Made by a program: the position numbers and the translations under genes
Notes under the pieces: model-generated
The model's database searches: none
Told to the model about the DNA's origin: nothing
What the model saw: only the letters and a program-made list of their open reading frames with translations
Source of the DNA: Bacteroidales bacterium
GTDB taxonomy: Bacteria; Bacteroidota; Bacteroidia; Bacteroidales; JAAYJT01
Reading direction: 5' to 3'
Assembly: GCA_030684735.1 (NCBI GenBank)
Contig: JAUXXY010000190.1
Span: forward strand, 1-33,476
Length of the DNA stretch: 33,476 nucleotides
Shown: in pieces, positions 13,918 to 15,069 of the stretch
Layout of the letters: each line of letters opens with the position of its first letter
How positions within the stretch are numbered: position 1 is the stretch's first letter

Positions 13918-14201
13918 CGGAATGAGATGAGGTGATAAAATTCAAAGGCACTAAAGTCCTATGAATTTGAAAGAAAAGCACAGTAAAATTAAATTTATGG
14001 CGATCGTATTCGATATTATGTCGTATATCTGGCGATTAAAAACACCATTATGATAAAAAGAGAGTTACAGGATAAGATTCAGAAAAAAATGTTTTCGGGG
14101 AAAACCATTTTTTTGTTTGGTCCCCGGCAAGTAGGAAAGACTACTTTGCTGAAGAAATTGCATCCCCTAACCTGGACAAGCCAGAACCAAACAGGAATAA
14201 T

Positions 14202-14638
14202 AGCAAATAGCAAAATGCAAAATTTATGAGCAAACTTTCGGATGATTTGTCGGACCGTTTTTTGAATTTTGCGGTCAATATCATTAATCTTGAAAGTCCA
14301 TTAGGTATAACCCCGATTTAGGGAATGTTGCTTTTCACCTTTTAGGTTTGTGAAAAGCATACATTTCCTTAATCGTTGAGCGAGAATCGCTCAATTTGGG
14401 TAAAACATATTCAGGGCGTCATATTTACGGGCAACTTTTTCGCGCCGGAACATCTACTGGTGCTAATCATGAAGAAGCGAGAGCAGGGGAAAGCAGGGCG
14501 GATTTCATTCATAAGATGCAGGTAGTATTAAAAGAGCTCCGTGAGGCGCATTACTGGATTAAACTTATTGTAGCAGTACAATTAATTCTTTCTGAAAATC
14601 AAAAATTGGAAAATGAATTTGCAATTTGCAATTTGATA
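14202..14638 (+). mobile_element. Four-helix-bundle (IVP-like) unit with inverted heptamer ends
   Basis: The four-helix-bundle gene is bounded on the left by three near-identical heptamers (AGCAAAT, AGCAAAA, TGCAAAA at 14202-14222) and on the right by the same word inverted (TTTGCAA at 14618-14624 and 14625-14631, then TTTGAT). It sits between the two halves of an ATPase gene, so the unit appears to have been inserted. No transposase is encoded. The heptamer arrays may be the ends of the moving unit or a sequence associated with this gene family; the exact insertion borders are not resolved. Confidence 0.5.
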
Positions 14639-14641
14639 TAA
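14226..14641 (+). pseudogene. Four-helix-bundle protein (S23/IVP family), interrupted
   Basis: The ATG at 14226 opens 26 codons (MSKLSDDLSDRFLNFAVNII...LESPL). After a gap, 14396-14641 encodes GKTYSGRHIYGQLFRAGTST and ...ESRADFIHKMQVVLKELREA. Joined at 14303/14399 they reconstruct a normal four-helix-bundle protein of about 106 residues, the family of the 23S rRNA intervening-sequence proteins, with its signature RHIxGQLxRAGTS and ESRxDFIHK blocks. The join is broken by about 95 bases that introduce a stop and shift the frame by two. The C-terminal residues EFAICNLI are encoded by the right-hand heptamer repeats. A TTG at 14396 could in theory start a shortened protein, but this is unlikely to be functional. 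Confidence 0.75.
14301..14402. repeat. Small two-hairpin element inside the IVP gene
   Basis: About 95 bases interrupt the four-helix-bundle gene between imperfect direct repeats TTAGGTA (14301-14307) and TTGGGTA (14396-14402), which may be a target duplication. The insert has a long inverted repeat with a perfect 10-base core (TGCTTTTCAC 14329-14338 and GTGAAAAGCA 14350-14359), extended outward with a few mismatches to about 25 bases. A second, perfect hairpin follows (TTGAGCG 14376-14382 and CGCTCAA 14388-14394). It encodes nothing and fits a MITE-like non-autonomous element. Confidence 0.6.
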
Positions 14642-15069
14642 CGTTTTTAAGGATAAACTAAAAAATATTTTGCCATTTTTGGTTAGAATATTGATGATAA
14701 GACACTAATGCCGACATCACAATCTGGATGAATGCGGATAATACTGAGGACAGGGAGATGTTAAACAACATCAGCAGTACAAGGGCACTGCAATTATTCC
14801 CTGTAGGGTCTTTGGCTATTATAGATGAAGCACAAAGGCTTGAAAATTGGCTGCTTTTAAATTCAAATGAAAGTCAAAACAAGGCCAACAATACAACGAC
14901 ATTTTTTCAAAAGCATACCTCCATGCTGAAACCTCAATTATTGATCGTGAAAGTTTCCGGGAATTCCTGAAATTATAGAACAGTAGTTGAGTTATTTGAT
15001 TTGATAATATTTACTGTTTTGACAATGAGCCTATTTAACCCTTGACGCCTCCCGCATCCACTCATTCTG

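Follow-up and report, generated by a model that had tools for sequence, protein, structure and literature searches.

Intervening sequences (IVSs) of 23S rRNA genes that carry an S23/IVP gene are known from Leptospira and Coxiella, and the layout described for them is that of an IVP-family gene within a stem, i.e. between inverted and potentially stem-forming sequences (PMC4990558). Hypotheses listed for their origin include a mobile element and a remnant of transposition (PMC4990558). The locus described here, located in a 33,476-bp stretch of a Bacteroidales genome (contig JAUXXY010000190.1; hereafter the window is this whole stretch), resembles these systems in an IVP-family gene between putative inverted arms, which are weak in this copy, but differs in that the gene lies between transposon ends within a protein gene, not within rRNA. 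Our preferred reading, to which we assign a probability of about 0.85, is that an IVP-carrying, non-autonomous unit with characteristic left and right ends (LE and RE) inserted into a gene for an AAA_14/DUF4143-type ATPase, that a miniature inverted-repeat element (MITE) interrupted the IVP gene, and that the ATPase decayed further. All layers at the locus look inactive now.

The host gene is recognisable on both sides of the insert. Its codons 1-38, including Walker A (GPRQVGKTT), lie at 14050-14165 on the forward strand (as do all features below unless stated) according to profile and homologue matches, and codons 39-87, including Walker B (LAIIDEAQR), were placed at 14709-14847 by homologue alignment. 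When joined, the two parts score 40.6 bits against AAA_14 over profile positions 3-75 (cut-off 27 bits), whereas separately they score 25.2 and 14.7 bits, both under the cut-off; moreover, both are collinear with the single intact ORFs of 6 homologues of 373-377 residues from related genomes. The original prediction of an ATPase gene split by an IVP-carrying insert is thus borne out, the two parts fitting one family in the right order and not different families, a possibility that the prediction had itself raised. Both of the halves that it had named are real, yet the insert between them (14166-14708) extends beyond the IVP gene on both sides. Excision of this segment (CATCC|TGCC) returns the ATPase to a single frame and to the length of one homologue (L048), with a restored junction that reads ...LLKKLHPADITIWMNADN... 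where the counterpart in L048 reads ...LLKKVFKADDVLWLDGDE...; the alignment with L048 cut 3 bases further on, and the exact cut was read directly off the sequence against that alignment. Direct reading reveals neither target duplication nor base loss at the insertion site. A strict empty site was not found, and two genomes of the same genus are without a close ATPase match, and so it is the family homologues and the exact restoration of frame and length that point to an insertion.

Quite apart from the insertion, the ATPase gene is a relic: ~245 codons are gone between the Walker B part and the C-terminal remnant, and the latter is frameshifted and contains a TGA. Using intact homologues as tblastn queries, we located the final ~41 ATPase residues at 14847-14969, in another frame and with one in-frame TGA, and reading onwards extends this remnant to 14978, the gene's natural stop being 14976-14978. 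An intact DUF4143 C-terminal domain is not present in the relic, of which only the last ~41 codons remain in this part. The end originally proposed at 14978 is consequently the natural ATPase stop.

The inserted segment is a whole non-autonomous transposon unit of 543 bp (14166-14708), delimited by ends common to autonomous elements and by the restoration of frame and length on its removal. Its conserved termini are CCTAACCTGGACAAGCCAGAACCAAACAGG on the left and ...GATAAGACACTAA on the right; it possesses no terminal inverted repeats (TIRs), and there is a gene inside. LE (14166-14195), identified by its recurrence in other genomes, contains a small hairpin (CTGG-ACAAG-CCAG), and RE (14662-14708, AATATTTTGCCA..GATAAGACACTAA) is of the same kind as ends found elsewhere, folding only weakly in some copies. 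Adjacent to LE is the left arm (14196-14225), a short tandem repeat (GCAAATAGCAAAATGCAAA) that is weak in the window copy and longer in a copy on another contig of the same genome (C97), while the right arm (14615-14639), recognised by direct reading, is inverted relative to it and overlaps the final IVP codons. We assign the unit to an LE-RE family on the grounds that it possesses the LE and RE common to elements that encode a ~500-aa protein.

Elsewhere, the 30-base LE is followed by different sequences and then by a distant end like ATAAGATACTAA. Allowing up to 3 mismatches, the LE pattern was present in 7 of 99 genomes, including that of the window (and with 36 copies in G070), whereas a reversed control pattern gave 0 matches in the same search. 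The exact pattern occurs in at least 119 genome-contig stretches from many phyla, with record titles that name Bacteroidota, Chloroflexota, Desulfobacterota, Verrucomicrobia, Cloacimonadota, KSB1, Neomarinimicrobiota and Clostridia. Both S positions of the LE stem were left free in the pattern search, and they are complementary in all of the distinct matches (120/120; 115 C..G and 5 G..C), which shows covariation of the stem. On the basis of these sequence matches, the vehicle appears to be an unannotated insertion-sequence family spanning phyla. The LE pattern was not found in viral contigs, and a search there for related loci confirmed nothing. Non-autonomous LE-RE elements span 80-727 bp, several of the shortest amounting approximately to LE joined to RE, and the 156 left flanks collected are A/T rich and G poor, with no fixed target word found among them. 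At several loci (L124, L145, L137, L155, L187) repeats like CACAGAGGCACAGAG, CACAGATTACACAGATT and GGGAGTAGGAAGTA, familiar from environmental sequences, stand directly after LE, often as inverted pairs.

In one genome (G048) LE is succeeded by a start codon and METLTQTYTGKISNTLSCYDRIIF, interrupted by contig ends, and a search of 393 genomes of the order recovered complete ORFs of 500 residues. Four loci (L119, L121, L129 and L231) hold elements of ~1.6 kb that consist of LE, an ORF of 500-501 aa and RE, the first codon of the ORF lying ~50 bases in from the point where LE begins, and RE coming shortly after the stop. A 46%-identical protein, preceded by a recognisable LE and followed by ACTAA, is encoded on a plasmid of Paraburkholderia phytofirmans and annotated as an ArsR-family regulator; labels in the plasmid collection are either ArsR-type regulator or hypothetical protein. 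A distant member of the protein family (21% identical) occurs at L180, and none was found in phage records. Beyond a weak winged helix, the ~500-aa protein has no significant match in Pfam, NCBIfam, PHROGs or PDB. Its AlphaFold2 model (pLDDT 62, pTM 0.54) is poor outside the winged helix, and Foldseek recognises in it only MarR/ArsR-type winged helices, at the C-terminal end. A YDK..LR.E motif in the protein may resemble those of rolling-circle initiators. Given that it is encoded by the sole gene between the ends, we infer that the protein is the transposase. No gene for it was found in the window's own assembly (91% complete), so that the unit would be either stranded there or served from outside.

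The gene inside the 543-bp unit is an IVP gene, the 5' part of which (14226-14303; PF05635) has a frame that meets a stop codon within the MITE, and the 3' part of which (14399-14641) matches PF05635. The joined parts score 42.4 bits over profile positions 10-95, the 3' part alone 39.4 bits (cut-off 33.8 bits), and aligned relatives that cover the junction continue across it without an insert. The four-helix-bundle gene that had been proposed is therefore supported, as is the hairpin element inside it, the family motif being restored once that element is left out. PF05635 has 14 matches in the genome of the window, plus the partial copy on C97, versus 0 in 14 control genomes. The host of the window's IVP gene is the ATPase gene, and not a 23S rRNA gene. 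Arms were assessed as inverted similarity between the 250 bases upstream and the 250 bases downstream, with 100 shuffles per gene. Of the 38 non-duplicate IVP genes with sufficient flanking sequence, 32 exceed all 100 shuffles, a layout resembling that of 23S rRNA IVSs; the arms of the window copy are weak (5 of 100 shuffles are equally good). An earlier run, which included duplicate loci, gave a median arm score of 52 at IVP genes vs 22 at 83 other ORFs. Short tandem repeats in inverted arrays flank the majority of the IVP genes at L005-L018 and L243-L271, and the repeat unit varies from gene to gene.

Where the original prediction had a free-standing IVP gene landing in the ATPase, we find instead that the gene came as cargo, flanked by a pair of transposon ends. 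In this genome LE-RE ends enclose at least three IVP genes, in both orientations, and a fourth copy is at a contig end: LE adjoins the IVP genes of C252 (the contig of the window), C44 and C117, a variant LE adjoins the C97 copy, and overall 4 of the 5 LE copies seen in the genome adjoin an IVP gene. C44 and C117, which represent one IVP lineage, have common sequence from LE through IVP to RE and diverge directly after RE, indicating that the unit was copied as a whole. In the window the IVP gene is read in the direction away from LE, in C44 and C117 in the direction of LE, and consequently capture probably happened at least twice. In other genomes, none of 27 unique IVP loci has an LE within range, and IVP cargo was found in the window's own genome only.

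The 95-base insert in the IVP gene (14304-14398), identified from its fold and its dispersed copies, forms two hairpins in a three-way junction (-42.3 kcal/mol, z -6.5, with 0 of 200 shuffles equal). Its earlier description as a two-hairpin element holds for the stable fold, but the window copy is truncated, and the full form has a third hairpin. At least 8 relatives of 81-84% identity are present in another genome (G042), along with 57 matches to the MITE terminal repeat CCTAARTTGAGCGATT (one mismatch allowed). There, most full copies measure 140-190 bp and possess an additional hairpin on the 5' side as well as both terminal repeats (CCTAAG.../...TTTGGG), and 5-6-bp target duplications flank most intact copies. 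Of the two TIRs that define such an element, only that on the right (CCCAAATTGAGCGATT, 14385-14400, reverse strand, from a repeat search) survives in the window copy, and we class this copy as a remnant of a TIR-type MITE because one TIR is present here and both in the full G042 copies. The window copy begins at TTAGGTATAACCCCG, the sequence after the lost hairpin in full copies, at a point where an uninterrupted IVP gene would read TTAGGTAAAAC; slippage between two copies of TTAGGTA probably removed the 5' hairpin together with one duplication. In the window's own genome, a search for other copies yielded fragments at chance level only. In a further genome (G015), several contigs (L087, L089, L091, L093, L095, L099) break inside an insertion sequence with the terminal repeat CCTAAATTGAGCGATT. 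To judge from this same terminal repeat, that insertion sequence is probably the parent of the MITE; its transposase was not reached in G015, where the contigs end in terminal repeats.

The predicted order of three insertions is not established: each host must be older than its own insert, but nesting does not fix the order of the MITE insertion and the jump into the ATPase. On this point C97 gives a hint: it carries a near-identical IVP 5' part with a variant LE at a different site, and the contig ends within 1-2 bases of the point where the window's MITE starts. Since a chance contig end there is unlikely in a 543-bp unit, this coincidence suggests that C97 also carries the MITE, which would have entered before the IVP unit was copied. 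The LE in the first 300 bases of C97 (L040) holds ~25 extra bases (CCCCGAACACTGCGTTACGGGG...) that are able to pair.

In the history that we favour, the carrier of the IVP gene and its inverted tandem-repeat arms was a non-autonomous member of a family of insertion sequences whose asymmetric ends form hairpins (LE CCTAACSTGGACAAGCCASAACCAAACAGG, RE ...GATAAGRYACTAA). It entered the ATPase gene without target duplication or loss, and the ~500-aa protein of autonomous members would have mobilised it in trans, perhaps by recognising hairpins in single-stranded DNA in the manner of IS200/IS605. A MITE broke the IVP gene and later lost its own 5' hairpin, and the ATPase decayed further through internal deletion.

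A possible, though distinctly less probable, alternative is that the IVP gene and its inverted arms constitute a mobile unit of their own, which entered an LE-RE element already present in the ATPase. Most IVP loci indeed have arms without LE or RE (arms at 32 of 38, LE at 3), the two lineages differ in how the IVP gene is oriented with respect to LE, and many LE-RE elements hold arms but no IVP. However, the copies on C44 and C117 travelled, IVP gene included, as units that run from LE to RE, and C97 and C252 match each other from the LE side as far as into the IVP gene; these shared blocks imply that the whole unit was what moved, at least on the later occasions. The IVP gene may nevertheless have been captured in the first place by an insertion of its own into an LE-RE element.

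That the ATPase pieces were joined by recombination or repeat misassembly, without a single clean insertion, would be in keeping with the internal deletion and frameshift of the gene and with an assembly in 281 contigs, yet it is very improbable given that each junction falls exactly on an element end that other genomes also show and that removal restores frame and spacing. We regard it as similarly improbable that the 95-base hairpin, instead of being left over from a transposon, serves as a functional RNA such as a riboswitch, an sRNA or a ribozyme. Its very stable three-way fold invites such a reading, but an Rfam scan of the region gave chance-level matches only, with no family near its gathering score, and the dispersed copies have inverted-repeat ends and duplications, and the insertion breaks a reading frame.

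More tentatively, and at somewhat less than even odds, LE-RE ends with a ~500-aa winged-helix protein may represent an undescribed, cross-phylum insertion-sequence family that picks up IVP genes as cargo. If true, this would offer a direct route for the spread of the genes of 23S rRNA intervening sequences, and IVP copies bounded exactly by transposon ends would provide a testable vehicle for IVS/IVP movement. A literature search of partial coverage returned no description of free-standing IVP elements or of the LE-RE family, which ISfinder may list under another name.

Among described transposons, IS200/IS605 and their palindromic non-autonomous derivatives are similar in their asymmetric ends and possibly in hairpins near the tips, given the covarying LE stem but the weak RE fold of some copies, and they too lack target duplication, of which there is none at the ATPase site. 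They differ in that the LE-RE partner is a ~500-aa protein that has a winged helix at its C-terminal end and lacks a Pfam Y1 match (nor has it any Pfam, NCBIfam or PHROGs transposase match of the kind that would identify a Y1 HUH transposase, TnpA), and in the fixed target word, which is absent beside LE. Bacterial MITEs, e.g. BrickBuilt of Porphyromonas gingivalis, are likewise short and non-autonomous, some with internal tandem repeats (PMC4596501), whereas the 543-bp unit has a gene and no terminal inverted repeats; the 95-bp remnant belongs to another, inverted-repeat family. Finally, IStrons, which combine a group I intron with an insertion sequence (PMC4227781), also join a transposon to an RNA-folding element, but at this locus no intron or splicing was found, and an IVP stem would only be cut, not spliced.
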